Below, piece after piece: positions 7,601 to 43,500 of a DNA stretch of 64,000 nt. Every line of letters starts with the position of its first letter. The stretch's first letter is position 1. Both the position numbers and the translations under genes were made by a program. Below the pieces are notes generated by a model that ran no database searches, was not told the origin of the DNA, and saw only the letters and a program-made list of their open reading frames with translations. The DNA comes from Branchiostoma floridae. Taxonomy: Eukaryota > Chordata > Leptocardii > Amphioxiformes > Branchiostomatidae. The stretch covers positions 12,505,436 through 12,569,435 of the forward strand of contig NC_049995.1 in the NCBI RefSeq assembly GCF_000003815.2. The letters run 5' to 3'.

Positions 7601-10600
7601 AACGCGTGACATCCATCAACTTATCCAAGCTAAAAGGTACCTTCTTTGTGAAAAGATTGAGGAACCGCATGTCACAACATAATCGAGGTTTTGATGGCTC
7701 AACCGTTAAAGGCATCACCAAATGTGGCGGGTCTACTTCCCCTACTTTACCCCACAGCTGAACAGCCCCCGTTTTTAAGCGGTCCTCAATCGTTTCAGAA
7801 ATGAAATCTACAAATTGATTACACGAAGATCCATTAGGGAACAGCCTTTTTGGCGGATACAATTCATCATAATATTGGCCTTGCCACGAGCCCTTAAATG
7901 GCACAATAAAATCTTCCACATCAACGCCTTCTCTGATCCATTTCATCAATAATTCCCTATCTGCATGTTCCCTTAGGATCAACTCCCATTCTCCTGGATA
8001 TTTATGTATATTCCCTGCTATAAAGTGTGATGGATTTCTAAACTTCAACATAGTGGCATTTCCATGGCACGTCCCCTCCAAAACGTCGCTGAAGGTGGGA
8101 GCTGGGGGGTTGGTGTTGTCCCAGGGCTTCCCATCAAAAGTTACCCATGAGTGGCTCACTCGCTTACACTTGGCTGCCGTCTCAGGGTCAAAGTGCACGT
8201 TGGGAAACTTCTGTGCCAAATGAATGTTACCCTTACCACGAGTGCACTGTAAAGAATCAAAGAACGAAATTCAAATTCTGTAAACTTTTAAAAAACCAAC
8301 AGTAATTTTTTCAGCCCTGGGAAACACCAACCCACAAAGGTGGGGATAAGGGAACAGGAAAGCCCCTGGTGTTTGCCATGACGATAAAACCAGAACAGAA
8401 ATTTTTATTTTTTCTTTTTTTTTTTTTCTTTTTTAAATAACACGAAAATAAACTATCCTACGACTCTAAAAGAGCGAGACACATCTCAAAAGAAGAAATT
8501 GCCATATAAAAATTGCCAAAACATTTTTTATTCACGTCCAGTCCAGTCCAGTCCAGGTCCATTATCTGTTCAAATGCCTCTCTCAAACTTTTCATTGTTA
8601 CTGAGAGAACTTGCAATACTCAATACAATTTTAAGTCATCTCTAATATATACGAATCTTCTGAAATCAATATCACCGGTACAACATACATATTGAAGAAA
8701 ATCTCGTCGACCGAATATTTCACACAAAACACGTTAACCTTATATTCTCATCAACAAACTATTACAAATTCAGTACTTCTTCAATTTTGACAACCAGATT
8801 ATCCAACATATTTTACATCTTCACATCAAATTGTTCAAAATGCAACAAACAGCACACTATAATCTTTCAACAGCATGTTCTTACCAACTCGCATCGGGCA
8901 CGATCACTGACTTCCAAAGAAAAAACATACAATTCAACAGTGTTACAAAATTGCTTCATTCTCCATAACAATAATAGTACAAACAAAAATGTTACTCCTT
9001 TTTCATCCTACCCCTCTTCTCGGGACATTTCGCTATCAAATGCCTATTACTTCCACATCCATAACACCGCCTGGTTCTACTGCTAGCCTGTTGAAATTGG
9101 TTGCTATTTCCAAACTGAGGCGGATTGGAGTTCCAGAGCTGGCCCTGGCCAGAGCAGCCCTGCTGGCCCAGGTTGGGGCTCCACTGCTGGCTGGGGAAAC
9201 TCTGCAAACCCAGATTGGGAATTATCTGGGGAAGGTTGGAAAGCCATTGCTGTGGTACTGCGTTAGAAAATGGCTGAGGCGGGCTGAAGAAACCCTGCGG
9301 GACATAGGGTTGCCACCGCTGCTGCATCAGCCCACACTGTCCCGACTGTTGCCGCGACCCAAGTGCTGGTGCAGATGAAACTGCCTGGTTACCCTTATTA
9401 CTTAAATTCTCCAGGATCCCCCCAACACGCTTTCCAACCTTTCTTTCTGCATCAGTTGCATACATTTCCCTCAACGCCGCCTTAAGGTTAGGATCGTGAC
9501 GATTCATTCTAAAAAGTTCTGCTGCCGCTTGATAATCGTCCGCTTTTCTATGTCCTTCCCTCTTAGCGGCCGCCGCCAAGTCCTCCACCAGCTGCATGGC
9601 TGAGGCAGCATCAAACAGCGCGTCTGGCCGCTGTACGATGCTCCTTATATCTCTCAAAATGGCTCTCATTCCCACTTGCCCCCTCTGGAACCCCTCCACT
9701 GTAGCCTGAAGGGATCTTACCAACTGCGCAAGTTCCTGCAAGAATAAAAGCAGAAACATGCCTTCAATTTTTTCAGCCACACTGGCTAATTTCCACACAG
9801 GAAAAAGTACATAAAATACCTTTCACACCAAATAAATTAGCCATACAGGCTACAACATGTGAGATCAGCCACACATGCTACAATACCCCAAACTATTAAC
9901 CACACAGGTTATTGGCCACACAGGCTACATCATGCGTCTTGTTAGCCACACAGGCTACTACCACCAACTAATAACCACACAGGTTACTGGCCACACAGGC
10001 TACATCATGTAAAATTGTCCGACATCATGTAAATTGTCAGCCACACAGGCTACTATCCCCAACTAATAACCACACAGGTTACTGGCCACACAGGCTACAT
10101 CATGCAAATTGTCAGCCACACAGGCTACTATCCCCAACTAATAACCACACAGGTTACTGGCCACACAGGCTACATCATGTGAATTGTCAGCCACACAGGC
10201 TAAATCATGTAAATTGTCAACCACACATGCTACTACCACAAACTATTGACCACACAGTCTGTCACCAGGCTAAAACCGCCCTAACAAATTTCAAACAATA
10301 CTTGTAAACACGCTAGTAAACAACGAACTAAAAAAAAAAAAATTTTTTTTTTTTTAACTACCCGGAAGCATGTAACCAAACACACAATCTAGCGCTAAAA
10401 TCTTTCTACTTAGGTCAAAACCAGCATGAAACTTCTTTTTACCTCTTGCGGTGGGATAGGAGGGGCACCATCCGGCTGAACTCCAGCCGCCTGCTGGACT
10501 TGTGGAGGTAATCCCGGGGGTGCTTGCGGTGCAGCTGCACCCTGAGGTGCCGCTGGTGGCTGTTGAGGGGGTATTTGCTGCTGCCCCTGGGGTAGAAACC

Positions 10601-17027: not shown

Positions 17028-17606
17028 TTGTCCAGTTGAATCATGTCCAGTTTAACCAGTTTGATAGCCTATGGCTATAACTATAGCCCCGGCTGTATTT
17101 CTCTTTATGCAGACTTAATAACTCGAATGAAATCGGGTTTGTTGTAGGGACAAAACTGCATGCAAATGATAAAGGCATGTAGCTCACAGTAGCTCGAAAA
17201 CAATATCAAAACTGCTAAATGTCATTGTGCATGTTTTCAGAGGGAGGGGGTCACGTATTATTTGTCCATTGTTCCTTCTTTGACAATATAAGAATGTGGC
17301 CTTTAGAAACTGATGAGATATCTGTAATTATGATTATTTTTGTTGATTTATTTCTGTGTCTTACTGCCATTTCAATTAGAAAGGGCTGAACCAACCAGGA
17401 GTACAAAAACAACCATCGAGCATTTTGTGAAGGAGACGAGCAACAACGGGTGCAGACAACAGACCCAGGAAGACGGGATGGTAGCCGAACAATAACGTCA
17501 TGAACAAGGAAATGAACGGCATGCAGTAGGGCATAGAGTTTTGGCAGGCAGCTGAGGAAGGAGTCTTATCATATCTTTATGAATCTGTCGGTGTCAGAAA
17601 CCTAAA

Positions 17607-19415
17607 ATGGCAGAATCTACCAAACTTTTTATATGTGAAGAGTGCGGATACAGGACAACGTGCAGGGGCCACCTCACACGACATGTCAGAAAACACACAG
17701 GAGAAAAACCCATGAAGTGCGATCAGTGCGACTATTCTGCTGCACGAAGAGACCACCTCAAACAACACATCATGGTGAAACACACCGGTAAGAAGCCGTA
17801 CATATGTGGTGAGTGTGGATACAGGACTACCAAAAGTTCTTACCTAATGATCCACATGAGAAAACATACAGGGGAGAAACCTTACAAGTGTGAGATATGC
17901 CAATACAGGACAGTTGACAAGTCTTCCTTAGCTGCACATATCAGAACACATACAGGTGAGAAACCCTACAAATGTGACCTGTGTGACTATTCTGCTACAC
18001 AGAGATGCCATCTAGCCCACCACGTTACGATGAAGCACACCGATGAAAAACGCTTTGTGTGTGGGGAGTGTGGATACAAGACAGCTGACAAAACTTCCTT
18101 CATTGTACACACAAGGAAACATACAGGGGAAAATCCGTACAAATGTGACCAGTGCGACTACTCTGCTTCGACGAAATACACTTTAGACCGACACGTAATG
18201 GTAAAACACACTGGTGAGAAACCCTTCATGTGTGGGGAGTGCGGACACAGGACAGTCACTAGGTTTGGCCTGACCCGACACATGAGGACTCACACAGGCG
18301 AGAAACCTTACAAATGTGACCAGTGTGACTTCTGCTCTGCGCGTAAACAGTATCTAGACATACACATCATGACAAAACATACAGGAGAGAAGCCCTACAT
18401 GTGTGAAGAGTGTGGATTTAGGACTGTTTATAAGTCTGTTCTTTCCAGACATGCGGTGAGAAGACACTCTGGGGATCAACGCCATAAAGGACACCAGTGC
18501 AACTATTTGTTTGTACAAAAATCTAAACTAGACGAACATACCAAGATAAATCTCACCGGTGAGAAGCCCTACATCTGTGGGGAATGTGGGTACAGAGCCA
18601 AGAACAAGTCATCCCTCAATAAGCACACGAAAACACACAAAGGAGAGAAACCCTACAATTACAAATGTAACCAGTGTGACTACTCTTCTACACAGAAATG
18701 CCAGATGGACAAACACGTGGCGACGAAACACACCGGTGAGAGATCTTACCTGTGCGAGAATTGCGGATACAGATCAGCAACTCGGTCTGGGCTTGTCCGG
18801 CATGTCAGAAAACACACCGGTGAGAAACCCTACAAGTGTGACCAGTGTGACTATTCTGCTGCACGGAAACACCATCTAGAGCAACACGTCATGACGAATC
18901 ATAACGGTGAAAGACCTTACCTGTGTGAGGATTGCGGATACAGATCGGCAAGTCAGTCTGGGCTTGTCCGCCATGTGAGAAAACACACCGGTGAGAGACC
19001 CCACAAGTGTGACCAGTGCGACTTCTCTTGTGCAAACAAGTGGACGTTAAACCAACACGTCACGACAAAACACACTGACGAAAAACCCTACTTGTGTTCT
19101 GAGTGCGGGTACAGGACGTCCATTAGGTATTCCCTAACATTACACATGAGAAAACATAATGGTGAGAAACCGTACAAGTGTGGCCAGTGTGACTACTCTG
19201 CTGCACAGAAATGCAGGATTGACAAGCATGTGCTTTTGAAACACACCAGCAACAAACCGTACCTATGCGCGGAGTGTGGGTTCAGAACGGCGGACAAGTT
19301 TAACTTTTTACGACACATGGGAACTCATGGCGGCAGGAAACCCCACAAGTGTGACCATTGTGATTATTCTGCTGCAAGGAAAGACCAATTAAAGAAGCAC
19401 ATGCTGAAGCACTAG
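17607..19415 (+). CDS. Poly-C2H2 zinc-finger protein, 21 fingers
   Basis: Uninterrupted frame of 602 codons made almost wholly of C2H2 zinc fingers joined by TGEKP-type linkers; probably a nuclear sequence-specific DNA-binding protein. I count 21 fingers. They mostly alternate between two types: CGYRT...H-x3-H and CDYSA...H-x4-H, so the array grew by duplication of a two-finger unit. Finger 11 (about residues 301-324) is degenerate: its first Cys is Gly and its last His is Leu. There is no KRAB, BTB, SCAN or SET domain; only eight residues precede the first finger. The start AAAATGG has a good context. No intron is needed, though a 5' UTR intron could end at about 17379. A poly(A) signal candidate is at 20616. 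A one-to-one orthologue cannot be named; the finger style resembles the REST-like and ZNF64-like expansions of invertebrate deuterostomes. Confidence 0.93.
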   Translation: MAESTKLFICEECGYRTTCRGHLTRHVRKHTGEKPMKCDQCDYSAARRDHLKQHIMVKHTGKKPYICGECGYRTTKSSYLMIHMRKHTGEKPYKCEICQYRTVDKSSLAAHIRTHTGEKPYKCDLCDYSATQRCHLAHHVTMKHTDEKRFVCGECGYKTADKTSFIVHTRKHTGENPYKCDQCDYSASTKYTLDRHVMVKHTGEKPFMCGECGHRTVTRFGLTRHMRTHTGEKPYKCDQCDFCSARKQYLDIHIMTKHTGEKPYMCEECGFRTVYKSVLSRHAVRRHSGDQRHKGHQCNYLFVQKSKLDEHTKINLTGEKPYICGECGYRAKNKSSLNKHTKTHKGEKPYNYKCNQCDYSSTQKCQMDKHVATKHTGERSYLCENCGYRSATRSGLVRHVRKHTGEKPYKCDQCDYSAARKHHLEQHVMTNHNGERPYLCEDCGYRSASQSGLVRHVRKHTGERPHKCDQCDFSCANKWTLNQHVTTKHTDEKPYLCSECGYRTSIRYSLTLHMRKHNGEKPYKCGQCDYSAAQKCRIDKHVLLKHTSNKPYLCAECGFRTADKFNFLRHMGTHGGRKPHKCDHCDYSAARKDQLKKHMLKH

Positions 19416-20989: not shown

Positions 20990-21919
20990 GTGGAAAATGA
21001 GGATGCTGGAGCGGCTATAGCGGTTGGAGCTGTGGGGGCTAGAGCGGTTGGAGCTGAGGGGGCTAGAGCGGTTGGAGCTGAGGGGGCTAGAGCGGTTGGA
21101 GCTGTGGGGGCTAGAGCGGTTGGAGCTGTGGGGGCTAGAGCGGCTGGAGTTGAGGGGGCTAGAGCGGTTGGAGTTGTGGGGGCTAGAGCGGTTGGAGCTG
21201 AGGGGGCTAGAGTGGCTGGAGCTGAGGGGGCTAGAGCGGCTGGAGCTGAGGGGGCTAGAGCGGCTGGAGCTGTGGGGGCTAGAGCGGCTGGAGCTGTGGG
21301 GGCTAGAGTGGCTCGAGCTGAGGGGGCTAGAGCGGCTGGAGCTGAGGGGGCTAGAGCGGCTGGAGCTGAGGGGGCTAGAGTGGCTCGAGCTGAGGGGGCT
21401 AGAGCGGTTGGAGCTGTGGGGGCTAGAGCGGCTGGAGCTGAGGGGGCTAGAGCGGCTGGAGCTTATTGGGCTAAAACGGCTGGAGCTGAGGGGGCTAGAG
21501 TGGCTAGGTCTGTGGGGGCTGGGGCTGGGGCTGGAGCGACGGGCTGTGGGGTCTGGAGCTGAGGGGTCTAGAGCGGTAGAAGCTGTGGGGGCTAGAGCAG
21601 TTGGAGCTGTGGGGGCTAGAGCGGTTGGAGCTGAGGGGGCTAGAGCGGTTGGAGCTGAGGGGGCTAGACAGCTGGAGCTGAGGGGGCTAGAGCGGTTGGA
21701 GCTGTGGGGGCTAGAGCGGCTGGAGCTGAGGGGGCTAGACAGCTGGAGCTGAGGGGGCTAGAGCGGCTGCAGCTGAGGGGGCTAGAGCGGCTGCAGCTGA
21801 GAGGGCTACAGGGGCTGGAGTGGCTGGAGCTGAGAGAGCTAGAGCGGTAGGAGCTGTGGGGGCTAAAGCGGTTGGAGCTGTGGGGGCTAGAGCGGCTGGA
21901 GCTGTGGGGGCTAGAGCGG

Positions 21920-22554
21920 NNNNNNNNNNNNNNNNNNNNNNNNNNNNNNNNNNNNNNNNNNNNNNNNNNNNNNNNNNNNNNNNNNNNNNNNNNNNNNNNN
22001 NNNNNNNNNNNNNNNNNNNNNNNNNNNNNNNNNNNNNNNNNNNNNNNNNNNNNNNNNNNNNNNNNNNNNNNNNNNNNNNNNNNNNNNNNNNNNNNNNNNN
22101 NNNNNNNNNNNNNNNNNNNNNNNNNNNNNNNNNNNNNNNNNNNNNNNNNNNNNNNNNNNNNNNNNNNNNNNNNNNNNNNNNNNNNNNNNNNNNNNNNNNN
22201 NNNNNNNNNNNNNNNNNNNNNNNNNNNNNNNNNNNNNNNNNNNNNNNNNNNNNNNNNNNNNNNNNNNNNNNNNNNNNNNNNNNNNNNNNNNNNNNNNNNN
22301 NNNNNNNNNNNNNNNNNNNNNNNNNNNNNNNNNNNNNNNNNNNNNNNNNNNNNNNNNNNNNNNNNNNNNNNNNNNNNNNNNNNNNNNNNNNNNNNNNNNN
22401 NNNNNNNNNNNNNNNNNNNNNNNNNNNNNNNNNNNNNNNNNNNNNNNNNNNNNNNNNNNNNNNNNNNNNNNNNNNNNNNNNNNNNNNNNNNNNNNNNNNN
22501 NNNNNNNNNNNNNNNNNNNNNNNNNNNNNNNNNNNNNNNNNNNNNNNNNNNNNN
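21920..22554. other. Assembly gap (635 N)
   Basis: Run of N inside the minisatellite; the true length of the array is unknown. Confidence 0.99.
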
Positions 22555-23127
22555 GGGGGCTAGAGCGGCTGGAGCTGTGGGGGCTAGAGCGGCTGGAGCT
22601 GAGGGGGCTAGAGCGGCTGGAGCTGAGGGGGCTAGAGCGGCTGGAGCTGTGGGGGCTAGAGCAGCTGGGGTTGAGGGAGCTAGAGCGGCTGGAGCTGTGG
22701 GGGCTAGAGTGGTTGGAGCTGTGGGGGCTAGAGTGGTTGGAGCTGTGGGGGCTAGAGTGGTTGGAGCTGTGGGGGCTAGAGCGGCTGGAGCTGTGGGGGT
22801 AGAGCGGTTGGAGCTGTGGGGGTAGAGCGGTTGGAGCTGTGGGGGCTAGAGCGGTTGGAGCTGAGGGGGCTAGAGCGGTAGGAGCTGTGGGGGCTAGAGC
22901 GGTTGGAGCTGTGGGGGCTAGAGCAGTTGGAGCTGAGCTGAGGGGGCTAGAGCGGTTGGAGCTGAGGGGGGCTAGAGCGGTTGGAGCTGAGCTGAGGGGG
23001 CTAGAGCGGTTGGAGCTGAGGGGGGCTAGAGCGGTTGGAGCTGAGCTGAGGGGGGCTAGAGCGGTTGGAGCTGAGGGGGCTAGAGCGGTTGGAGCTGAGG
23101 GGGCTAGAGCGGTTGGAGCTGAGCTGA

Positions 23128-23466
23128 NNNNNNNNNNNNNNNNNNNNNNNNNNNNNNNNNNNNNNNNNNNNNNNNNNNNNNNNNNNNNNNNNNNNNNNNN
23201 NNNNNNNNNNNNNNNNNNNNNNNNNNNNNNNNNNNNNNNNNNNNNNNNNNNNNNNNNNNNNNNNNNNNNNNNNNNNNNNNNNNNNNNNNNNNNNNNNNNN
23301 NNNNNNNNNNNNNNNNNNNNNNNNNNNNNNNNNNNNNNNNNNNNNNNNNNNNNNNNNNNNNNNNNNNNNNNNNNNNNNNNNNNNNNNNNNNNNNNNNNNN
23401 NNNNNNNNNNNNNNNNNNNNNNNNNNNNNNNNNNNNNNNNNNNNNNNNNNNNNNNNNNNNNNNNNN
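23128..23466. other. Assembly gap (339 N)
   Basis: Second run of N inside the minisatellite. Confidence 0.99.
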
Positions 23467-24720
23467 GAGCTGAGGGGGCTAGAGCAGTTGGAGCTGAGCT
23501 GAGGGGGCTAGAGCGGTTGGAGCTGAGGGGGGCTAGAGCGGTTGGAGCTGAGCTGAGGGGGCTAGAGCGGTTGGAGCTGAGGGGGGCTAGAGCGGTTGGA
23601 GCTGAGCTGAAGGGGGCTAGAGCGGTTGGAGCTGAGGGGGCTAGAGCGGTTGGAGCTGAGGGGGCTAGAGCGGTTGGAGCAGAGGGGGGCTAGAGCGGTT
23701 GGAGCTGAGGGGGCTAGAGCGGTTGGAGCTGTGGGGGCTAGAGCAGCTGGAGCTGTGGGGGCTAGAGCGGCTGGAGCTGTGGGGGCTAGAGTGGCTCGAG
23801 CTGAGGGGGCTAGAGCGGCTGGAGCTGAGGGGGCTAGAGCGGCTGGAGCTGAGGGGGCTAGAGTGGCTCGAGCTGAGGGGGCTAGAGCGGTTGGAGCTGT
23901 GGGGGCTAGAGCGGTTGGAGCTGAGGGGGCTAGAGTGGCTGGAGCTGAGGGGGCTAGAGCGGCTGGAGCTGAGGGGGCTAGAGCGGCTGGAGCTGTGGGG
24001 GCTAGAGCGGTTGGAGCTGTGGGGGCTAGAGCAGTTGGAGCTGAGGGGGCTAGAGCGGCTCGAGCTGAGGGGGCTAGAGCGGCTGGAGCTGTGGGGGCTA
24101 GAGCGGCTGGAGCTGAGGGGGCTAGAGCGGCTGGAGCTGAGGGGGCTAGAGCGGCTGGAGCTGTGGGGGCTAGAGCAGCTGGGGTTGAGGGAGCTAGAGC
24201 GGCTGGAGCTGTGGGGGCTAGAGTGGTTGGAGCTGTGGGGGCTAGAGTGGTTGGAGCTGTGGGGGCTAGAGTGGTTGGAGCTGTGGGGGCTAGAGCGGCT
24301 GGAGCTGTGGGGGTAGAGCGGTTGGAGCTGTGGGGGAACAATTTAGGAGTCTTTAGGGGGGTATAAAACTGGACAAAGATGGGCAAGGGGTCTATAAAAG
24401 CGGTTAGTGACATTTTGGGGCCCTAAAAAGGTGGGAATTGAGGGCGGTTAGAGACGGTTTGGAACTATAGAGGCTAGAGGGGCTGGACCTGAGGGGCCTA
24501 GACAGCTGGAGCTGAGGGGGCTAGAGCGGCTGCAGCTGAGGGGGCTAGAGCGGCTGCAGCTGAGAGGGCTACAGGGGCTGGAGCTTAGGGGGTTAGAGCG
24601 GCTGGAGCAGAGGGGGCTAAAGTGGCTGGAGCTGAGGGGGCTGGAGCTGAGGGGGATAGAGCGGCTGAGGGGGCTAGAGCGGCTGGAGCAGAGGGGGCTA
24701 CAGGGGCTGCGGAAACCTCT

Positions 24721-25699: not shown

Positions 25700-28600
25700 C
25701 TAGTCCATGCGAGGCTCTCCGGCGACGATGTCCCTCTCGATACCGCACTCGTCCTGGCCCCTCAGGATCTTGAAGAAGCCTGAAGAAAGGAAATGATTCT
25801 TAAGTAAACTGGTGCAATAGTAGAAGTACAGTCAAACCTGCAGCATCTAGGCTGGACCTAAGCAACCCTAAATGAACTGAGCAATCAATTTCGGTTGTTG
25901 AGTGGAGGGTAAATGCCCCTTTGAGACTCCAAAAAACTAGTCGCTGGTTGGGTAAGATGGTTAGTTGCTTGGGACAGGGTCTTAACTAAAATGGACAGGA
26001 CTGTTTGAATGTGTCCCCAAGTGAGCTTATCTTCCAGGTTTCGTACTACACTTCTAAAAAAATGTACATATATGCACATACACTGTTACACAGATAAAAT
26101 TTATTCTAAGTTTAGTAACATTTACAAATTACACATCAAAAGTCTATAAATGTCTTTCACTATTTTGGGTGTGCAATCAAATCGCTTCCACTGTATCAGT
26201 AACAGGTACCTAAACCTCATTTGCATAATTTATGCAGCCATGTTTCTTACCCATATCGCCCCAGTCGCTGTTCCAGCTGTTGGCGATCAGCCAATAGGGA
26301 GTGCTGCCCTCCATTCCCCATCCGATCATCTTCACGGCGTGGCCGCCGAGCTCAGCGCCAGACTCATGCTGGTACACACCTGCAGGAGAATCAGCCAATG
26401 GGAGCAGTTAACACAGACCTGACATCACATGCCACATGTGTTGCAAATTCTGATTGGCCAACAGAAGGTAAACTCCAGACATGGAGATAAATCAGCCTAT
26501 CAGGACAGTCAATTGTATAGCACTTATATGTGACCTTCATTCTGATTGGTCAATACTAACTATAGGTCAGTACCTGATATTGTAAACAAACCAGTCAATG
26601 ATAACAGTCATCGCAGACTTCATACTGTGAATAAATTGTCTCATGCATCGCACGATGCGGGAGCCTCTGAGTCTGACTCTAACTTAGTAATATATCAGCA
26701 CAAGATCAAGCCAGTAACTAAGCCAGTAACTGGGGGTTCTAGCCAGCATATGTCCTTCCATTCTTTGACAGAATTTTGCTGCTGGGAACAGACAAAAATT
26801 TTGCCCATTCCATCCTCTGTGACAGACAAAAATTGGAATTTAAAACCAAGCTAACTCTACAATGGCCAGCAAAATATGCTTGTCAAAATAAAGAATTTCA
26901 GAGGGTCTAGATTTCAAACATTTCCCAAGGAGCATGCCTCCGAACCACACAAGGAATGTTGTGCCTTCGACAGGATTTCAATTCAAAATCTAGGGGACAG
27001 AAAAAATCAACTGGCTAGAACACTGAACCATTTCCATTTGTAATTTGCTAAACAACAAGTTGTGAGAACATACCAGACTTGTAGTGAGGGAAGTCAGCGT
27101 ACACGGTGAAGGCAGCCTCAACAGGTCCGTTAGTCATGATCTCCATCTGGATCTGCTGAACCTTGGAGCTGACGGAGTAGGCAGACTTGGCTAGTGGGGA
27201 GAACACAGCAACAAACATTTTTAGTATGCTTTTTCATTAATTCTCCTTAACCCTGATTCATTGCACACAGTGGTTTGTATGTAGGGAAAAGCATGGACTT
27301 AATTCAATGTAAGATTAGGACGATTATGTTTGAAGACACTCTGGGTTTTCACAGTGAACACACTGCAGCAAAAAAAAATGTCTGGAGTTACCTAATCTTA
27401 AATACTGCAAAAAAATTCCTCTCTCTAATCATCTGATCACTTAAAAAGTCTATATAGAGTCCCTGTGAAAAGAAATAAATCAACAGTATTGTAAAGTCCC
27501 GTTAAAACTTAGCACTACAATACAATTTGAAACCAGTTATTATTTCAGTTACAAACCATAGTGCTTGTCCTTATTGAAGGTGACGTTGTACCCGGATTCG
27601 CACGTCTTCTTGCACCTGGGGGTGGGCTCGATCTTGCCGCAGGCGGGGCGGGAGCCGTTGATGTGGTGCTCACAGGGGGCGATCTCGTAGGGCTGGCAGC
27701 CCTGCATGGAGCCGTAGGGTCCACCTGTGACCAGGCCGTCCTGCTTCCAGTACTCCCAGGCTGCCTCAGGGAAGCCACCATGGCACCTGGTAAATACAAC
27801 GTACAGTCATACCTTAGCATGAAAGTTTATCTGTATTGGTAAAAGACAAAACCATGGAGAAACTAAACAGCCAGGGAGGAAGTGTTGAACAGGGCTGCTG
27901 GAATTTCAGCCAGGTAAGTGATATTATGCTGGAAAGCCACAATGGCACCTGGTAAATACAGTCAAACCTTACTGTTTTAAGTGGCCATTTTTAAGGGTGG
28001 ATTTTGGGCCTTTCAATATCACATTTTTACCATTCAATGTCACATTTTTTACCTATCAATACCTTCAGCAGCAACAATCTGAAAATAGATTGTGATCAAT
28101 TGCATGATCTAGAAGCAATTATGTGAGACACGACGATACAGCCTAATGTAATAACATCAACTATGATTTTATACATTCAGAATATTATTGAATCATAAAG
28201 TATGATATTGTACTATCTAAAGCATTTAATTTCCAATTCTGTGAGAATCAGCAGAAGAGAAATCAAGCTGGATTTCTCCATCCACATATACATATACAAT
28301 GTACTTTATTTTCAATAGTGCTGCATGATGTCTTGCAATCAGTACAGAGTCTACACCATCCCAAGCATATGATACAAGTCCAAATGATTCGATCACCTCA
28401 AGAGGGGCAACACCAGTAATTTTGAAACCATAAAGAATGGTCATACCCTTGCAATTTGCAGAATAAAAATTCAATTCCATTTAAAGATCAGTGTTTTCAC
28501 TTGAAATTCAATTCCATTCAAAGATCAGTGTTAAGTTCATTTTTGATTTTTGACATTTTCTGCAATTTGAAGTTCAGTGTGATCAGGTATATATAATTTT

Positions 28601-31382
28601 GATTTTTGTCGGTTTTTTTTTGCTTGGTGGCTTACCCGTTACCACAGCTCTTGCAGCAAGAGTTCAGGTCTTCAGCGGAGATGTGTGCCATTGTCATTCC
28701 CTTCGACGCGACACAGATACGGTCGCTCATTGCCTCAACGGCAGCAAGAGCCTGAGAAAACGAGTTGTCACACCACGTCATAAACATGTACACTATTGTA
28801 CAGGTTCGCAGGGTTGGACTAGTTTTCTAAAATCCAATTGTCTTATCGGGCAAGTACAAAAAAATTACTTGCCTGAACCGAAATTCAAATGACATTTTTC
28901 TATGTATTTTCACTTCCAGCAATGGATTTCTTTTATCATTGGCTCTGTTTTCTGTGCTGGTCAATGCTTGATGCCATGACTATAAAAGTATCAAAGTCTC
29001 ACTCAGGGAATAATCTTACTTGCCCGATCAGGCAAGTGATGTAGGACATGCACTTGCCTGATCAGCTCTTTCACTTGCCTGGGACAATCGGACATGTCCA
29101 ACCCTGGTTTGTTGCATAGCAAAACCTGTTTTGTTTCTGGCACAATCATTAGACTTACCCCATTCCGCACGTTTCGCAACATGCCATGAGATTTTCGGAC
29201 GAGAGGTGGACTTGGACTTTTCCGTTCGAGGCGACGCAGGTACGATCGCTCATGGCTTCAGCTGCAGCTTCAGCCTGGCATGGTAGATTTGCAGAGAATG
29301 GGGGGTAGGGGGGTAGAGCAGAGGGGGGGGGTAGAGGCAAATTGATTTCATTGATTGGTTAATTGTTGTGATCATTGGTTGTAAAGTTAAACATATTATC
29401 CTGGCAGATGAAAATCCTTATGTTGAAACAATCTTTGAAGAAATTAAAGACAAAAATCTGAAATTCTGGGTATAATTACTGGTAGCGGTTTAATTACTCT
29501 GATTGATATTAATGTTTGTTTGATTTATTAATTCAAAGAAATGATTTTTTGAAATGCAGGATGGCAAGCTGAAAAGCATCATAATAAGACTCACTGACAC
29601 TAAGCTAAGTCTACCAGCAAAATTTGCCCCTCAAAATACAGGAAATACATGTAGCACTTCAGAGGGTTTAGATTTTACAATTTTCCCAGGGTGCATGCAC
29701 CCAAAGCCCCCTAGGATTGTGGTAACATGCCAATAGGACACAGAAAAATCCAGGCTGACTAGAACACTGGTAGTGTAACTCATGTAAACATTTACCCAGC
29801 AGGAGCCACAGGAGCCCTGGTCGCGGACCTCCTTGATGGTGGGGCAGTTGGCCCACTGGGTCCTGGAGTCAAACGTGTCAGGGATGTCCTGGGGACAACA
29901 ACAGTACAAAATCATTCTCTATCTAAGCTTGTTCCCAACAAGAAATGTTGATCCGTATGATAAGTGTAGCCGGTATAACCGCCCTTCAGCGTAACAATAC
30001 TAGCGTCGTATTCATCATCCAACTATGATAATATTATCTAAACCAAACCAATCAACTACTATACAAACTTGTTAATTGAGTTAAATCAAAAGTTCTTTCT
30101 TATGCAAGTTCACTGTCAATATAAGCACAACTTAACCAAAAAAATCATTTACTTTTATACTGATATTAATCATTGCATGTACAGATAATATTGTTAATGA
30201 TGACTATTACAAAAATATTATTTAGTATGCAATTCATTTACAAATCTTTTCCAAAATTCTGTGTGGACAAAAGGGGTGATTGTGAAAGGTTAATTTTCAC
30301 CAAAAGGGCCCATGTTCTGACCTGAGCGTTGAGTTCGTGCAGCTTGAGAGGGAGTTTGTGGTTGTTTGGATCCCTGATCACACCACACAGGCCCTTCACG
30401 TAGGACACTGTCGCTCCCTGGAAGTTCCACCCTGCCTAGAAAACAAAATGGTATGTTGTATTTACATTTATGAAGGTTAGACATTTACTGATTTAGGCAA
30501 ACAAATTCATGCAATTACACTAGAGCTGCTGAAGAAGAGTGATGGACGTCACTCGAAATGTCCGGAAGTAAATCAGTTCAGTCTGTTTTTATCCAGTTGT
30601 AAAGGTAGAATATTGTATTTTGAAAGGTATGTTGTACTGTCCGACAAGCCCAATCAGGGCTCGAAATTCATTTTTGGGATTAGGTGCACTGGTGCACCCA
30701 GCATAAAAAATTGGGTGCACCAAAAAATTTTTGGTGCACCACTTATATTTGAGTAGAATGTCAGAAAAAAATAACAAAACTTAGATACAAGCTATCAAAT
30801 TCTTAAACAAGACTACCATGACAGACATTTTTATTATCTTTCTAACACTTAGATGTCACGAATATGATGTATACTAGTATACTTGATATCTTTACATACA
30901 TAAACCTAAGAAAATATTTGGGTGCACCCTGTGCACCCACTGAAAAAAATTGGGTGCACAGTTCCAATTTTGGGTGCACCTGGGTGCACATGCACCCAGT
31001 ATTTCGAGCCCTGCCAATAGAGCCAGATAAACGTGCATCGTATGTCATAATAGACCAGGGCTGTTTGCAGCTTTATGTTTATTCTGAGAGAGTGAGGGCA
31101 AAGATACTCAGCAGTAAAAGGTTTTGATACCAACTTCTACAGCCATACAGTCTGATAGTGATAGTTGTGATTTTGACCCCTGGAAGAATGAACTTGGCTT
31201 CTTAGAAATAAAACTAATTTGTCACATTGAATGTCTACTCAATGTGAAACTCCTGAATTTACCTTCCACGTGGTGTCGATGGAGTTGACATAGTCGATGA
31301 TCTCCTGTGTCAGCGGTTGGTGGATGGGGAACTCCTTAGCGGAGACCGCCGCGAGCACGGACAAGACAACCCAGGCCAGCAT
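25700..31382 (-). CDS. CTSB: Cathepsin B, complete, with two alternative exons 4
   Basis: Lysosomal papain-family cysteine protease with endo- and dipeptidyl carboxypeptidase activity. Coding exons (minus): 31263-31382, 30322-30435, 29796-29888, then either 29159-29274 or 28636-28751, then 27557-27786, 27074-27190, 26251-26379, 25700-25779. All junctions are GT-AG and in phase; either choice gives 332 aa (human 339). Visible: 15-residue signal peptide ([15 protein letters not shown]), propeptide with [16 protein letters not shown], mature start near DIPDTFDSR, active-site Cys108 in QGSCGSCW, occluding loop with the His pair [10 protein letters not shown] that marks cathepsin B, His277 in [11 protein letters not shown] and Asn297 in ANSWN. 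A 5' UTR intron probably ends at the acceptor before 31389. It is tail to tail with FDFT1 and head to head with TAF5L. Confidence 0.96.
26736..27021. mobile_element. Short inverted-repeat element in CTSB intron
   Basis: Ends GTTCTAGCCAG (26736-26746) and CTGGCTAGAAC (27011-27021) are perfect inverses; the right side extends to ACTG. The interior shares CAGAGGGT(C/T)TAGATTT and GCATGC words with a truncated relative near 29640-29769. Non-autonomous; superfamily not assigned. Confidence 0.6.
28636..28751 (-). CDS. CTSB: CTSB alternative exon 4B
   Basis: 116 nt with acceptor TTTTCTCAG and donor GTAAGC, entering in phase 0 and leaving in phase 2. Encodes [18 protein letters not shown]... ending SCCKSCGNG, which lines up with human AFGAVEAISDRICIHTNA...TCCGSMCGDG, the helix that follows the active-site CW and the next disulfide cluster. 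It has the same length and phases as exon 4A, so only one of the two can be used in a functional mRNA. Confidence 0.9.
28809..29105. mobile_element. CAGGG-ended MITE between CTSB exons 4A and 4B
   Basis: 297 bp with terminal inverted repeats CAGGGTTGGAC and GTCCAACCCTG; the 5-bp flanks are GTTCG and GTTTG, a probable target duplication with one change. The interior contains several inverted copies of ACTTGCC. It fills most of the 407-nt intron between the alternative exons. Confidence 0.7.
29159..29274 (-). CDS. CTSB: CTSB alternative exon 4A
   Basis: 116 nt with acceptor ATGCCAG and strong donor GTAAGT, phases 0 and 2 as in exon 4B. Encodes [18 protein letters not shown]... ending ACCETCGMG. 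All cysteines needed for the cathepsin B disulfides are kept, but the residue two after the active-site CW, usually Phe (CWAF), is Glu here (CWAE), and the middle of the exon differs strongly from 4B. Confidence 0.9.
29640..29769. repeat. Truncated copy of the GTTCTAGCCAG element
   Basis: Shares CAGAGGGTTTAGATTTTACAA, GCATGCACCC and the terminal CTGACTAGAACACTG with the element at 26736-27021; the opposite end is not recognisable. Confidence 0.45.
29965..30000. repeat. Fragment of the LINE 3' end seen at 37630
   Basis: GTAGCCGGTATAACCGCC...GCGTAACA matches the 3' terminal region of the LINE fragment at 37630-38184. A similar scrap (TAGCTGGTATAA) is at 42670-42690. Confidence 0.4.
30655..31013. 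mobile_element. CAGGGCTCGAAAT MITE, copy 1 (CTSB intron 1)
   Basis: 359 bp with terminal inverted repeats CAGGGCTCGAAAT and ATTTCGAGCCCTG, flanked by CCAAT on both sides (30650-30654 and 31014-31018), a 5-bp target duplication. The interior has clusters of TGGGTGCACC palindromes near each end. A second copy in reverse orientation is at 55186-55549. Confidence 0.85.
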
Positions 31383-34573: not shown

Positions 34574-37500
34574 ATGAAACGTGTAAAAAGCGAGGATATC
34601 CAGTCCGCTGTGCTGCAGTATTTAAAGAAAAGACAATATTCGGTAAGTCTATGACCTTTTCTAACTCCTAAAGAGGCAAACTGTGTGAAAATATGACACA
34701 AAAGAGCGGTAAAACGGAGTAAAATTGGTAAACTAAGAAAGAGGGAGGGGGGCGCTGAAATATATAATTTTGTTTGGAAAAAAAGCCACTGTACATGAAC
34801 GTCCTTTACGCTATATTTAGTAGACGTAGATATGTTCAAACAGCGGTAACATTAGAAATGCAAACTTTATATCAACTGACGTTGCGTAGCATAACGGTAA
34901 GGTGCTTTGCATGGCTCAAAGCCCAGAGGTTCAGGGTTGAAGTCACCTGGTATGCTCAGACATTATGCCCCTTGGAAAGGCACATAATACTCTGGTGAAA
35001 AGGAGTACATTTGTACTTAGCTTCGGTTAGGATCATCACTCAGATAGGACGTTAAGTGCAGGTCCCGTGTTTGAGGAGAATCACCTCGAGCACCTTAAAG
35101 AATCCACCACACTTAACAAAAAGAGTAGGCACTCTTTCTAGTGTGCGTGAATCAATTAATTCTGTCAAGATATGCAGCTTGTACTGTTTACTACAAACCT
35201 GGTGTGTTATGCCATGAGGCGGTTTACCAGGTATGCAAAACAATACAATAAAACAAATGTACAGTATATAATCTTAACACACATTTGAGTCCTGACAACA
35301 AAGGCAAAACTACCTATACCCAATGTTATGTGCCACCTTTCACCCTTGACCTTTTATCCTTGACCAGGACAGTGACACGACCTTTAAGAAGGAGCAGAAG
35401 TTGAGTCAGACGGTGTCGGAGATGGCGGTGCAGGGCGCGGTCATGTCCGAGTCTGGAGTCAGCACCTCATTCACATTCAGCAGCTGGTGGGTATATAGCT
35501 GTGTTGTTTTAACCTCAGGTGTAACACACAAAACTATACCTCAGAAAAGAATGGATAGTGAGTGAGTAGCCTGATTGAATCTCGCTTATAGCAGCCCGCC
35601 CAACATTCGCCGGCCTCCTAGCTAGTTACAGCCCTGGACAGCAGAGTTTGTGTTACACAGACTAGTGAATGAGTGAGTCAGTGAGTGAGAAAAGAATGTA
35701 CTGGGTATATTTTGTTAAGGGGTATATGTTGGCATGCTATACCAGTAATGTCTTTCTTTACGTATGGGCATTAACTTGAGGTTCTAGGTTTACACATCTA
35801 CTTCATTATTTCCTTTACCATGTACTAGTAATGCGTAATCTGCATTGCATATACTCAATGATTATCTAAAATTTTCACATTATACACATTTTTCAGCGAT
35901 CCTGACCCGACACTATATGAAGACCAGTATAGCGGGTAAGAACTTAAGCACAAAGTTCTCTCATCCCAAACTTTGGAATTTACATTGTTTCATTGAGTTG
36001 TTGAACTTGTTCAAGATCTATAGGCAGACTGATCCTAAACCTAGAAACATTTAAATTTGTAAGGATATGAAATTTTAATGTAGACTCAGTGGAGTAAGTC
36101 AAGACAGATAAGTTTTAGTTTGTGCAAAAATGAACTTGCCTTCTGCAAAAAATAGTTCTTTTTTTTTTCAAGTGTTATTAAATGTCTACATTTACCCAAA
36201 CTGTCCACTATTTCAGACTCAAAGTACTCATAGATGATGCTCCACAAGCTCACCAGGTAAATATGACATATCTTTTGTGCCTTAGTTTATATCCATTCAC
36301 AAATGCATGTGACGAGTTTTACCTGTACCTGCACAAGTATGTGCATAATCTAGTAATTTGAGTCCTAACCAATTCTTATGCTATGTTTCCCCCAGTCAGA
36401 GTTGACAGTCCTGCTGTATCCCATGTTTGTACACCTACACTTGGATTTGGTCTGCAACGGACACAGGGATGCTGGTGAGTTGAACATTTGCACCAAATAT
36501 ATGATTAAGACACATAGCTGAAAACTGATCTGTTGGCAATATTATTTTCCCTGTCATGTTAGAGTTTTTCCTTCCGTCAAGAAGAGTGATATTACTTTAA
36601 GAAAAATGCTGTTGGAAAAAAAAATTCTAATGAAAAACATTCTTAGTAGTTTGCCAACTCCCTTGAATTAACACTTGTACCAGAAATCAATGTACATGTA
36701 CAAGCAATGAATGACTAAAGAAGAAGACTTTGGGACAAATTTCAAAATAGCCAATTTCATTCTTTACTAGTGACTTGTGCAAGAAACATTGATATGCCAA
36801 CCTTTCTGCATGTGCTGTATATGTTCCCTTTCTTGAAAAATCAATAAAAAAATTATCTATATGAAATGATTTTGTTTTGTTTCCAGCTGAGGCGTTCTTC
36901 ACCCGTCACCATGGTAACTTCCTGGTAGACAACATGGAGTGGTACGAGCTGATCGAGGAGCTGGCAGGGGTCATGTGTAAACAGGACCTCTTCACTAAAC
37001 CCAAGGTCAAAGCCTTTAGGTGAGTCATGTGTAAACAGGACCTCTTCACTAAACCCAAGGTCAAAGCCTTTAGGTGAGTCCCCTTCACTAAACCCAAGGT
37101 CAAAGCCTTTAGGTGAGTCATGTGTAAACAGGACCTCTTCAGTAAACCCAAGGTCAAAGCCTTTAGGTGAGTCCCCTTCACTAAACCCAAGGTCAAAGCC
37201 TTTAGGTGAGTCATGTGTAAACAGGACCTCTTCACTAAACCCAAGGTCAAAGCCTTTAGGTGAGTCCCCTTCACTAAACCCAAGGTCAAAGCCTTTAGGT
37301 GAGTCATGTGTAAACAGGACCTCTTCACTAAACCCAAGGTCAAAGCCTTTAGGTGAGTCCCCTTCACTAAACCCAAGGTCAAAGCCTTTAGGTGAGTCCT
37401 CTTCACTAAACCCAAGGTCAAAGCCTTTAGGTGAGTCTCTTCACTAAACCCAAGGTCAAAGCCTTTAGGTGAGTCCTCTTCACTAAACCCAAGGTCAAAG

Positions 37501-40500
37501 CCTTTAGGTGAGTCCTCTTCACTAAACCCAAGGTCAAAGCCTTTAGGTGAGTCTCTTCACTAAACCCAAGGTCAAAGCCTTTAGGTGAGTCTCTTCACTA
37601 AACCCAAGGTCAAAGCCTTTAGGTGAGTCTGTATCTGTATCTGTATCTATATAGCCGGTATAACTGCCGTTCGGCGTAACACACCAGCTTCGCAGGCACG
37701 CGGCGCGGCAGCAGCTTGTTATATTACACCGAACGATCCGTCACACCTAACTTTTGCACATCTATCTGCAAGCGTTCTTTGAAGCTATTCAGAGAAGATG
37801 CCCCTACTGTACTTGGTGATAACAAATTCCACTCTACGATAGTTCTGGGAAAATACGAATTTTTGAACACATCAATCCTAGGCTGGTAACTCTTGTATTT
37901 GAAGTCATGGCTGTTTCTTGATGTTCGTTTTTGAGCTGGTATTAGATACTTATCAGTTGGTACGTCCACCAGTTTATTGGTCATTTTGTACATCATGCAA
38001 AGTCTAGACCTTTTCCTTCTGTCTTCAAGTGATGTCCACTGCAGATCTGTTTTCATTTTGGTAACACTAGCATCCCTGTTATAGTTGTTTGTACAGAATC
38101 TGGCAGCTTGGTTCTGTACCCTTTCAAGGTTATCTTTGTCTTTCTTTGTATACGGATCCCATACTGTTGCAGCATATTCAAGGTTAGGTGTTAGGAGTCA
38201 TGTGTAAACAGGACCTCTTCACTAAACCCAAGGTTAAAGCCTATAGGTGAGTCATCTTCACTAAACCCAAGGTCAAAGCCTTTAGGCGAGTCCCCTTCAC
38301 TAAACCCAAGGTTAAAGCCTTCAGGTAAGTCCTCTTCACTAAACCCAAGGTCAAAGCCTATAGGTGAGTCATCTTCACTAAACCCAAGGTCAAAGCCTTT
38401 AGGCGAGTCCCCTTCACTAAACCCAAGGTCAAGGCATTTAGGTAAGTCTTCTTCACTAAATCCAAGGTCAAAGCCTTCAGGTAAGTCCTCTTCACTAAAC
38501 CCAAGGTCAAAGCCTTTAGGCGAGTCCCCTTCACTAAACCCAAGGTCAAGGCCTTTAGGTGAGTCTTCTTCACTAAACCCAAGGTCAAGGCCTTTAGGTA
38601 AGTGGTCACCAAATGGTGCATCAAGAGTCATCCATCTCTATTTCAGTAGCCGTGGGCCACACAACTCTCTGCAATCACTACAGCAGGGGGCTAGTCCACT
38701 GGTAGTGGTGTATGTTCAACTTACCTACCCTGATGAGTGCTAAGCAGGAAAAGTATCATTTTTAAAGTCTTTGGTATGACTCGCCCGGGGATCGAACTCA
38801 TGACCAACCGACTGCAAGGCGAACATGCTGCCCACTTGCCCATTGCAGTGGTCCATAAATCACGTGTAAATACTAAATTCAAGGTGGAGGCCTTCAGAAC
38901 CCAAAGTTGGCCTAGCTATATATAAAGAGTTTCTTGTGATGAATATATGGACAAAGCAAAAAGGAATCAACTTCTAAATCAGTATCCAGGATTGTTTAAC
39001 TGTTGTATGGTTTCTGCAAATGTTTCATTACATGACATTTTGTTGAATTTCATTTCCAGAGAGACCAAGTATGCCATAAGTCTGTCAGACAAAGCCTTCC
39101 AATATCTGCTGAGGTACCTACAGGTAGGTTATGCTGAAGTCAAGTAATAACACTGTAACATGACATTGTAACTACTGCATGCTTATACATGTACAATTTT
39201 TTGTTAGTCATGTGTTTGGTGTTAACAATATTGTCTTGATCTACATGTAGCCTATAACCTACAACAAATTTATGTATTTGTTTATTTTTACAGAGTGATG
39301 ACAACCTCATTTTACTGAGATTGTTCAACACATACTTACATGTGAATGGTAAGGTTCAGGTTTTTTGATTGGTAGGGTCTAAAAGATGTTTGACTTCCCT
39401 CTCATTGTAACTTTAGTATGGCTAGTTTCAAGTAGATCAGCATCATATCTTGCTGTGCTGTAAATTGATGATTGTACAGTCATGTATCTGGAGGCTGCAG
39501 TTTTGCTGTAAGTTGAAAGGGGGCTCTTCTATCTATAAGTGTCAGGATTACTAGACTTTTTTTGCTACATGTAGATGTGACAATACCCTGCCATGAAGGA
39601 AGTAAATGTAGAACTCTTTTCTATCTCTATTGTGACTATGATTAGTATGACTAATGTCAACTTTCTACTGGATACCATAATGCTGCTAATGAAAATAAAA
39701 ATGTTCTCAAGATTGTCCTAAACACCCACTAAATGTGAAGTGTACATGATGGTATAAACCTTTTTTTCAGTGAAGCCAACACAAAATGGTGACCTTGACT
39801 TGTACAGCGACAAGAAGGGCGGGGCGCAGGAGGTTACCATGGCAACCCCACCCCACACGCCCGACAATAAGGTTCAGCCCGGCGACGTGACACAGGTGTC
39901 GCTACAGGATTGTATACGGCGGGTACGGGAGGGAACGCCATATCTGTCGTCGGTGTGTCTGTACACCTTCCACAACACATTCCAAGGGTGAGTCCGGCAG
40001 ACATCTTTGTGTCAAGAAGTTGAAAAACAACAACATGGTTTGTAAATTAGAGTACAGTATATCATACTGTATGTAGTCCATAGAGGTTGCAAAAGAAAGG
40101 TTTGAGATTTTGAAAAAAAAGTTTACAACTGAATTAAAAATGACCATTTAATGTTATGGCCTACTAGTATCTAGTTTGGATTTGAACTTTTTTTTAGATA
40201 ACTGACACCCTCAAGACAACATACATTTTTGTGTCAAGAAGTTGCAAAAAATAACAACTACAATGTTTTTGTTAATTAATGTATAACTAGTCTGTACAGG
40301 TTGAAAAACAGCTTTGTAGGGTCTAGTATGGACCCCTGTGGTACACTGATGTACTTTGTACATAGGGTCTAATATGAACTCCTGTGGTACATTGACACCA
40401 CACACTCACTATCCGGTTTATCTTTAGTTGTTCCCCATCCTGTGGGGGTTAGACGTGCTTGGACATAGAAGAGGGGGCTTGATGGCAGCTCGCCAGCGTC

Positions 40501-43500
40501 TTTTATCATTTGGGTTAACACTGTGTAGGTTGAGGAAGTGTATGTCTTCCCTTATGTTGACATGTTGTATTATCTCCTACCTTAAGTTAAACACAGCTGC
40601 AGTCTCTGATGACTCCAGGTTTGTGTGCGGAGGATTTGATGACTCCACGGTGAAAGTCTGGAGCGGCTTGTCTCGGAAACTGTAGTATAGACTCCTGTGG
40701 TACATGTACATTGACTCGAGGTTGTTCTCTCCTACCATAGGTTAAACACAGCTGCAGTCTCTGATGACTCCAGGTTTGTGTGTGGAGGATTTGATGACTC
40801 CACGGTGAAAGTTTGGAGCAGCTTGTCTCGGAAACTGAAGTATAGACTCCTGTGGTACATGTACATTGACTCGAGGTTGTTCTCTCCTACCATAGGTTAA
40901 ACACAGCTGCAGTCTCTGACGACTCCAGGTTTGTGTGTGGAGGGTTTGACGACTCCACAGTGAAAGTTTGGAGCGGCTTGTCTCGGAAACTTAAGGCAGC
41001 TCATCACACCGTCGACGTCTCAAGAATTAACCTGGCGGGAGACGTACTGGACGACAAAGTCAGAGAAGACAGGTATGTAGGTGAAATGTGTAAGAATATT
41101 AAAAGTTTTACATGTATTTGAATGACAGCATGCAGACATACTGTTACAGTTATAAACTTTAAGTCACTATTAGTACATTTCTTTACTAACAATTGTACAG
41201 GATAGTGTATAGGGCCAACAGAGGATGGATTCAAAGTAGAGATCTTTGGTCCGTGACGTTTGTTTCAACTTAATTTCAAGTAGTCCTAAATTTACCTACT
41301 ACACTTGGACAAGAAATTCACAGATGACTGAACTTTGAATGTTCTGCATTAAAGTATCAGTACATACTATTCCTGAATGCCCTGGATGTCCTAGTATTTT
41401 TTCATTGTTCTACTTCTACGGAGACTATTACTCAACAACTGATCTCAATCTGTTTTTCTCTGTGCCAGTGTTGGTCAGGAAGTGAAACACATGCGGGGCC
41501 ACAGTGGACCCGTCTACGGCACGTCTTTCCTTCCCAACAACACCTTCTTACTCACCAGCTCGGAGGACACTACGGGTTAGTTTCAAGGTTTTATCGCATA
41601 GGCAATACCAGGGTGCCTTCCTTTTGGTGTAAAACCACAGTTTGTACAGTTAAAGAACAAATTGTAAGTCTTACAGTTAGTTTGAAAAAAATCTTTCTGT
41701 TATGTGAAACGAACATCAAGTTTGAATCACAGATATAAGCCTATGATTTAACACACCAGAGTTTTGTACTGTAAAAACAGTACTGTGTGGGGTGTTAGGC
41801 CAAACAGTTAGTTTGAATAGTTCTCTGGCAATAACTACAGTAAATAAGTTCCACAAGTCAGCAAATTATACGTTTTCTGACGGTTAAAATGTTTTCTGTT
41901 TCAGTCCGCCTGTGGAACCTGTCAACCTTCACTAACGATGTAATATACAAAGGGCACAGCTATCCAGTATGGGACATTGACACCAGGTTCGTTAGTAGCA
42001 TACATGGTGCAAGATGTAATGATTGATTCATTCTTTTTTGAAAAAAAAGGAAGAATTTTGCATATTTCTAATTCATTGTACTGTACCTGTCCATCAAATC
42101 CACCCAAAAGAGATATGAGTTCATATTTTTCCTTTTTGTTCATTCTCCTTCACCCCAAACAAATGATCTAAAGCATCCTGCATTTTCCCCATGTTTGAGG
42201 AGAGCCATACCTTCAGTACGTTGAAGAACCCACCACACTTACAACTGTATCAAAAAGAATAGGGGTCCTTCCCGGTGTAACTTTTAGCCCAGCCTATTGT
42301 AAGCTCCTCACAATTCAGCTCCTGCATGGCGGTGAAGAGAGAGTAGTTAGTGTACCCAATGATAGTAGTAAAGATACTAACAGTATGTTCTCCCCTGTTG
42401 TGCGTAGTCCGTTGGGTGCATACTTCGTGAGCTGTTCCCAGGACAGAAGTGCGAGACTCTGGGCTTTAGACAGGACCTTTCCTCTCAGGATATTTGCTGG
42501 ACACTCCCAAGATGTGGATGTGAGTTGGCATACATACATAAAACCTGTAAACTTCATGGTGTATTCAATTAGTTAACCCTCCACCATTTTTTTATATGTA
42601 TTCATTCCGAAGTTCTTTGATGGCAATGTTATCTAAAACTCATGGGGTGTCTTAATATAATCTGTATCTATGTAGCTGGTATAAACACCCTTTGTGATCT
42701 TGTGATATATTTGTATGTTTAAACCAGATATTGTACTTGTATTTGTGAAGAAGAACCTAGTAATGTTTGTGAATGTGTAAATATCCTCATATCCTGCATA
42801 TATCCTTAGGGCCTGATGCTTGACTGCTTATCCAGTATAAAGTAAACACGAAAGTTTAACGTTTATGTTGTTTTTCAGTGTGTAAAATTTCACCCCAACT
42901 GTAACTACATTGCCACGGGTTCGTCTGACCGCACGGTTCGGCTCTGGAGTGTCCAGGACGGGAAGTTTGTCCGGATCTTCCATGGAAAAGATGGACACAA
43001 AGTAAGTTCCTTACATCCTCTTATACCAGGCTTGATCACTTTTCTTCACTACATTGTGAATAATTTTAACGTTAAGCTGCCCTAGGTTGGCATGATATAA
43101 ATGAAATACAACACGGTTTATAACATATCAAAACATATATGGAATACGTCATGTTATATCATATATCTTATGCACAATTACATGCACAGTACTTTCCTGC
43201 TGTGCATTATACTATTACTTAAATGACAATGTTGTTACTTTTCTATCTCTTACAGGGAACCATATTTTCCCTGGCATTTTCTCCTGATGGAAAACACTTA
43301 GCCTCTGCAGGTAAGCTGGGAAAGTATTAAATCAGTCAACTTGCAATTGTACAAAAGTGCTTGCATGTACAAGTATGGAACCTATAGCTAGCCTTGGATG
43401 ATCTATTGAAGGGTAAAATAATTAACCTGTGAACATACAATAATTATTGTGTTTGTGTATGAAACGTTGAGTGACAAGTTATTGGTTAAATTTACCAGTA

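Follow-up and report, generated by a model that had tools for sequence, protein, structure and literature searches.

A candidate pair of mutually exclusive exons after the catalytic cysteine of an amphioxus cathepsin B gene

A complete cathepsin B gene is found on the minus strand at 25700-31382 of the window, by which we mean the whole 64-kb stretch of amphioxus DNA analysed here. The gene carries two neighbouring versions of its fourth coding exon, 4A and 4B, which are homologous, asymmetric in phase and frameshifting if combined. We read them as mutually exclusive exons, a functional pair that arose by tandem exon duplication, and we put the probability of this reading at about 0.78. Judged from the sequence, this one gene can probably make two proteases with differences next to the active site and in the maturation cut.

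Joining exons 1-3 and 5-8 with a single exon 4 gives a coding sequence of 999 nt including the stop codon, which encodes 332 amino acids (Table 1). The first-pass annotation had called the gene cathepsin B, and this identification holds. The top Protein Data Bank matches of the spliced protein are procathepsins B, with E values of about 1e-125, and alignment to the best structural match shows that Gln23, Cys29, His199 and Asn219 are all kept, together with the occluding-loop pair His110-His111. The residue numbers used here are those of human cathepsin B, anchored by the alignment to the structural match. In both isoforms the Pfam models PF00112 (Peptidase_C1) and PF08127 (the short cathepsin B-type propeptide) score above the cut-off. 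Residue 245, which is acidic, is part of the S2 pocket and is Glu in human cathepsin B. In the alignment this position is Asp in the 4A and 4B isoforms alike, a conservative change that leaves it acidic.

Table 1. Parts of the cathepsin B gene and its introns, in positions of the window.
Feature	Position	Strand	Remarks
Coding exon 1	31263..31382	-	ATG at 31382; start of propeptide; signal peptide by eye; spliced model
Coding exon 2	30322..30435	-	Propeptide; Propeptide_C1 match, residues 24-63
Coding exon 3	29796..29888	-	Catalytic Cys; 3' end is CGSC-W
AG-free zone upstream of 4A	29275..29400	-	126 nt with a long C-rich tract; reached by 3/2000 shuffles
Alternative exon 4A	29159..29274	-	38 residues and two bases of a Gly codon
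Inter-exon intron	28752..29158	-	407 nt, strongly hairpin-forming
MITE	28809..29106		298 nt; terminal inverted repeats CAGGGTTGGAC; copies in the genome
Alternative exon 4B	28636..28751	-	38 residues and two bases of a Gly codon
Coding exon 5	27557..27786	-	CHGG; occluding loop with His-His
Coding exon 6	27074..27190	-	Spliced gene model
Coding exon 7	26251..26379	-	Catalytic His and Asn
Coding exon 8	25700..25779	-	Stop codon

The exon pair sits between the CGSC-W and C-H-G-G segments. Both exons are 116 nt long with AG and GT flanks, and on the minus strand both have phase 0 at the start and phase 2 at the end. Two tandem exons of this length and phase, each with its acceptor and donor, had been proposed in the first-pass annotation, and its coordinates prove exact. 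It had also proposed that including both exons or neither would break the frame, and the spliced models bear this out. With 4A alone or 4B alone the frame of a 332-residue procathepsin B stays open, while joining 4A to 4B leads to a stop after 155 residues and skipping both leads to a stop after 115. Early stops of this kind would also suit an expression switch, in which joint inclusion yields a decay-prone transcript and less cathepsin B. Such a switch has no need of the conserved cathepsin-like coding that both exons hold, however, and as an explanation of the pair it seems quite improbable.

Between the two exons, nucleotide identity is 74/116 and residue identity 22/38. As noticed before, they have the AEAMSDR/VEAMSDR stretch and the CC-x2-C cluster in common; 16 of the 38 residues differ. 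A tblastn search of the 64-kb window with 4A returns 4B at E = 2.6e-11 and its next match at E = 0.40, and it finds no third exon copy or nearby paralogue there. Searched with a 50-residue 4A query, the genome (513,431,437 bases in 431 contigs) yields 4A, then 4B (59%, E = 3.8e-8), then matches with E values of 0.3 and 3.8. A Pfam search of the genome gives 69 matches to the papain family, all cathepsin types taken together and the one in this gene included. Elsewhere the genome may hold a cathepsin B paralogue whose exon 4 is quite unlike these two. An assembly artefact or an allelic duplicate is ruled out by the 42 differences in 116 nt and by the MITE between the exons. Under a simple matrix of consensus frequencies, the donors of 4A and 4B rank second and third among the 340 GT sites of the gene. 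Pyrimidines occupy 13 of 20 positions at -23 to -4 of the 4A acceptor and 12 of 20 at the 4B acceptor, and the other acceptors of the gene have 12-15.

The 42 nucleotide differences between 4A and 4B fall 8, 10 and 24 on first, second and third codon positions. We simulated neutral change in 20,000 runs, each placing 42 substitutions on 4A. A fraction of 0.0001 of these runs had 24 or more third-position changes, and a fraction of 0.0002 had 22 or more identical residues. The absence of stops, found in 0.34 of the neutral runs, is weak or uninformative when taken alone. The dN between 4A and 4B is 0.31 (NG86), and no dN/dS ratio is given because dS is not computable. Compared with six outgroup cathepsins B, the numbers of identical residues in 4A and 4B are 18 and 20 for human, 20 and 21 for rat, 19 and 20 for bovine, 20 and 19 for 9s60, 21 and 22 for 3qsd, and 19 and 18 for 6row; with another gap placement the human identities become 18/38 and 19/38. 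Since four of the six sequences are presumably mammalian, the six outgroups amount to about three independent lineages. By these counts 4A and 4B are about equally outgroup-like, and no decay is visible in either copy. Coding constraint on both exons is supported by the codon positions and the outgroup identities, as an average over the history of 4A and 4B that does not imply present use. Constraint averaged since the duplication would also be left by a relic, that is, by one exon, probably 4A, that was long used and is now no longer spliced into mRNA. But a relic would fit poorly with high-ranked donors on both exons, with the lack of stops and indels, with outgroup identities that are about equal and with the unusual AG-free acceptor zone before 4A, and we hold it to be improbable.

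The block that is swapped runs from residue 31 to residue 69 and includes two bases of codon 70. It begins directly after Cys29-Trp30 and ends directly before Cys71-x-Gly73-Gly74. According to the alignment, both exons keep the four Cys of the block as well as Glu36, Ser39-Asp40-Arg41 and Glu57. The CC..C loop is one residue shorter in 4A and 4B than in the mammalian chains, a length common to 3qsd and 6row. Over residues 47-54, 4A is nearer to five of the six outgroups (3-4 vs 0-1 of 8), with a tie for 6row (3 and 3). Over residues 55-61, 4B is nearer to all six, and over residues 31-46 to four, with one tie and one reverse. Residues 62-69 are even in four outgroups and point one each way in the remaining two.

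Among these differences is residue 32, position 28 of papain, where 4A has Glu and 4B has Leu. The first-pass annotation was correct in placing the Glu of 4A at the aromatic position of CWAF, and it omitted the Leu of 4B. Because 4B, like 4A, is without an aromatic residue here, neither exon carries the usual Phe. Residue 32 is Phe in five and Val in one of the six outgroup cathepsins B. Papain position 28 is Phe in 47/47 prokaryotic loci with the strict motif, from a motif scan whose seed pattern itself contained DQGSCGSC and which serves solely for position 28 (82 loci, 35 of them without the strict motif; 80 of 141 prokaryotic relatives kept). A scan of viral contigs turned up two distant loci, both lacking the motif. 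Since this position is Phe or Val in the outgroups and Phe in the prokaryotes, Glu may weaken folding or catalysis. If so, both exons could be used and the 4A form could be a weak or inactive protease that acts as a decoy, an inhibitor sink or a propeptide donor. That Glu stands here in 0/6 outgroups and 0/47 motif-matching prokaryotic loci would agree with such a role. Yet the catalytic residues are all present, all of them in shared exons, and 4A has the four Cys of the block and an outgroup similarity about that of 4B, which makes a weak 4A form unlikely. Taking the exons as a functional pair, the products would be two procathepsins B with the same catalytic residues, occluding loop and propeptide and with differences at 16 of the 38 residues of the exchanged block. 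Both isoforms would be expected to be proteases, differing in pH range or stability.

The swapped block also bears on the conversion to two chains. In solved two-chain cathepsin B the light chains have 47 and 48 residues, and the heavy chain starts at query residue 129, within exon 4. Residues 47-50 read Asn-Gly-Lys-Val in 4A, with Asn at the two-chain cleavage site, and Lys-Gly-Met-Thr in 4B, where Lys takes its place. Asn is not universal at this site, because the chain-cleavage position is Lys in outgroup 6row and Gly in outgroup 3qsd. In mammals, as described in PMC9788469, legumain, which cuts after Asn, yields the two-chain forms of cathepsins B, H and L. Since of the two exons only 4A has Asn at this site and legumain cuts after Asn, isoform-specific maturation is predicted. 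4A would be matured by a legumain cut, and 4B would remain single-chain or be cut otherwise. The sequence of the swapped block thus suggests isoform-specific activity and maturation. It is conceivable, and we propose it tentatively, that the Glu near the catalytic Cys alters the pH or substrate profile of the 4A form and that this form undergoes two-chain maturation by legumain while the 4B form does not, so that splicing would switch the properties of a lysosomal protease in the digestive and immune epithelium of amphioxus.

For the choice between the exons we propose the following. Tandem exon duplication would have produced 4A and 4B, and each productive mRNA would hold exactly one of them. 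Joint inclusion or joint skipping shifts the frame, and the resulting mRNAs would be cleared by nonsense-mediated decay. We infer that mRNAs of both kinds exist. The 4A acceptor is unusual for the AG-free zone upstream of it (Table 1): the AG-free zones of the seven other introns measure 19-52 nt and are reached by 77 to 831 of 2000 shuffles. Correction for the eight introns compared leaves a chance of about 1% for the 4A zone. Candidate branch points of the yTnAy type lie at -113, -108 and -85 and are followed by the C-rich tract. From this arrangement we read the 4A acceptor as the regulated one and 4B as the default. The choice would most likely be made at the 4A acceptor, where RNA-binding proteins could open or close the AG-free zone. 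Since poly-C slippage could also have lengthened such a zone, we take it as support and not as proof. RBFOX-type TGCATG motifs are present at 29699 and 29052, among five in the gene, a raw count given as a lead only.

Pairing between introns was also considered. The local duplex of intron 3 with the middle intron has -34.2 kcal/mol and is reached by 0/20 shuffles, and the local duplexes of the other two intron pairs are reached by 6 and 8 of 20. For whole-intron duplexes, 12, 8 and 16 of 40 shuffles reach the observed values. The strong local pairing site consists of the intron 3 repeat and the MITE end. Competing RNA structures are not claimed, because the sole pair that stands out joins two repeat elements. 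The window has no Rfam match at gathering cut-offs.

The intron between the exons folds strongly (z -4.88, 0/100 shuffles reach it), in large part because of the inverted ends of the MITE. The terminal inverted repeats of this element are 11 bp long and perfect. Its likely 5-bp target duplication is GTTCG at 28804-28808 and GTTTG at 29107-29111, with one mismatch. A genome search with the element gave 1760 candidates, of which 40 were scored; all 40 match, including the copy in the window, and the 39 others have 73-80% identity. Ten loci were extracted and five have both exact ends, the window copy among them. Of the four besides it, three have identical 5-bp target duplications (CATAT, ATCCT and CAGTG), and the fourth has the pair GAGGA/GAGGG with one mismatch. 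We read the element as a MITE that was inserted later than the exon duplication, and the divergence of its copies suggests an old insertion.

Without the MITE the inter-exon intron has about 104 nt, short enough to raise the thought that exclusivity is steric, the 4B branch point being too near the 4A donor, an arrangement known from OGDH and alpha-tropomyosin. Upstream of the 4B acceptor, AG last occurs near -43. If the 4B branch point lies between this AG and the acceptor, it would have been at least about 61 nt from the 4A donor before the MITE insertion, which exceeds the ~50 nt that PMC7969005 quotes as the threshold for steric exclusion. The MITE has put the branch point about 300 nt farther away. 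Steric exclusion is rejected on these distances as highly improbable.

Further repeats are found in and around the gene. A repeat in intron 1 (30655-31015) has an inverted copy at 55184-55549 with 89% identity, and related repeats (68%) lie at 26845-26962 in intron 6 and at 29599-29723 in intron 3. Elsewhere in the window, 4523-8270 on the minus strand holds retroelement-like open reading frames. One frame of 740 amino acids has a reverse transcriptase match under the Pfam cut-off, and another of 531 amino acids matches the ALOG domain strongly and zinc ribbons weakly. On the plus strand, 17583-19415 is a single open frame of 610 amino acids with tandem C2H2 zinc fingers. A long GC-rich array with a 24-bp unit, broken by unread stretches, occupies 21013-24709. 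Two arrays with a 39-bp unit (36990-37629 and 38214-38603) have an identical consensus, and the unit of a 155-bp tandem repeat at 40573-40995 resembles, by eye, a WD40 coding exon.

Papain-family proteases diversify through gene duplication. The gene described here seems to diversify a lysosomal protease by a splicing swap of the block after the catalytic Cys-Trp, including the two-chain site. The exon pair would amount to an exchange experiment done by nature, bearing on papain position 28 and two-chain maturation. Amphioxus cathepsins were reportedly treated by Uinuk-Ool in 2003. Among the matches listed, we find no earlier report of such a cathepsin B exon pair; a prior report or a database annotation is possible. 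The splicing type, mutually exclusive tandem exons, is known, and among the same matches cathepsin B as a host is apparently unreported. In a digestive diverticulum library of B. belcheri described in PMC6015868, cathepsin B accounts for 132 ESTs (0.88%), and this expression marks the diverticulum as a tissue to look in.

The human tandem-duplicated mutually exclusive exons described in PMC5740500 and PMC9741552 are likewise adjacent and homologous, have equal length and phase and encode the same domain block. Frame incompatibility is given in PMC5740500 as one mechanism that enforces exclusivity. According to PMC9741552, human mutually exclusive exons are enriched in brain and skeletal muscle functions and include convergent ion-transporter cases. 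Compared with these two catalogues, the host found here is a papain-family protease; as far as the main texts of PMC5740500 and PMC9741552 go, 'Cathepsin' and 'CTSB' have 0 occurrences. If our reading is true, the exon pair adds a protease to this splicing type. For exons 4a and 4b of OGDH (PMC7969005), one of the two acceptors likewise has a long polypyrimidine, AG-free stretch, with distant branch points that are mapped there and are candidates here. Their intervening intron is short, like that of the cathepsin B pair before the MITE, and as PMC7969005 describes it, the distant branch points lie in this intervening intron and joint splicing is blocked sterically. Unlike in OGDH, the AG-free zone of the cathepsin B pair precedes the first exon, in an intron of 521 nt, and the frame excludes joint use. 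To our knowledge, vertebrate cathepsin B has a single version of the swapped segment. The amphioxus protein shares with vertebrate procathepsin B (1pbh and others) the propeptide, the catalytic Cys, His and Asn, the occluding-loop His-His and the Cys pattern of the block, and it differs from the vertebrate enzyme in having two versions of this block, both without Phe at papain position 28.
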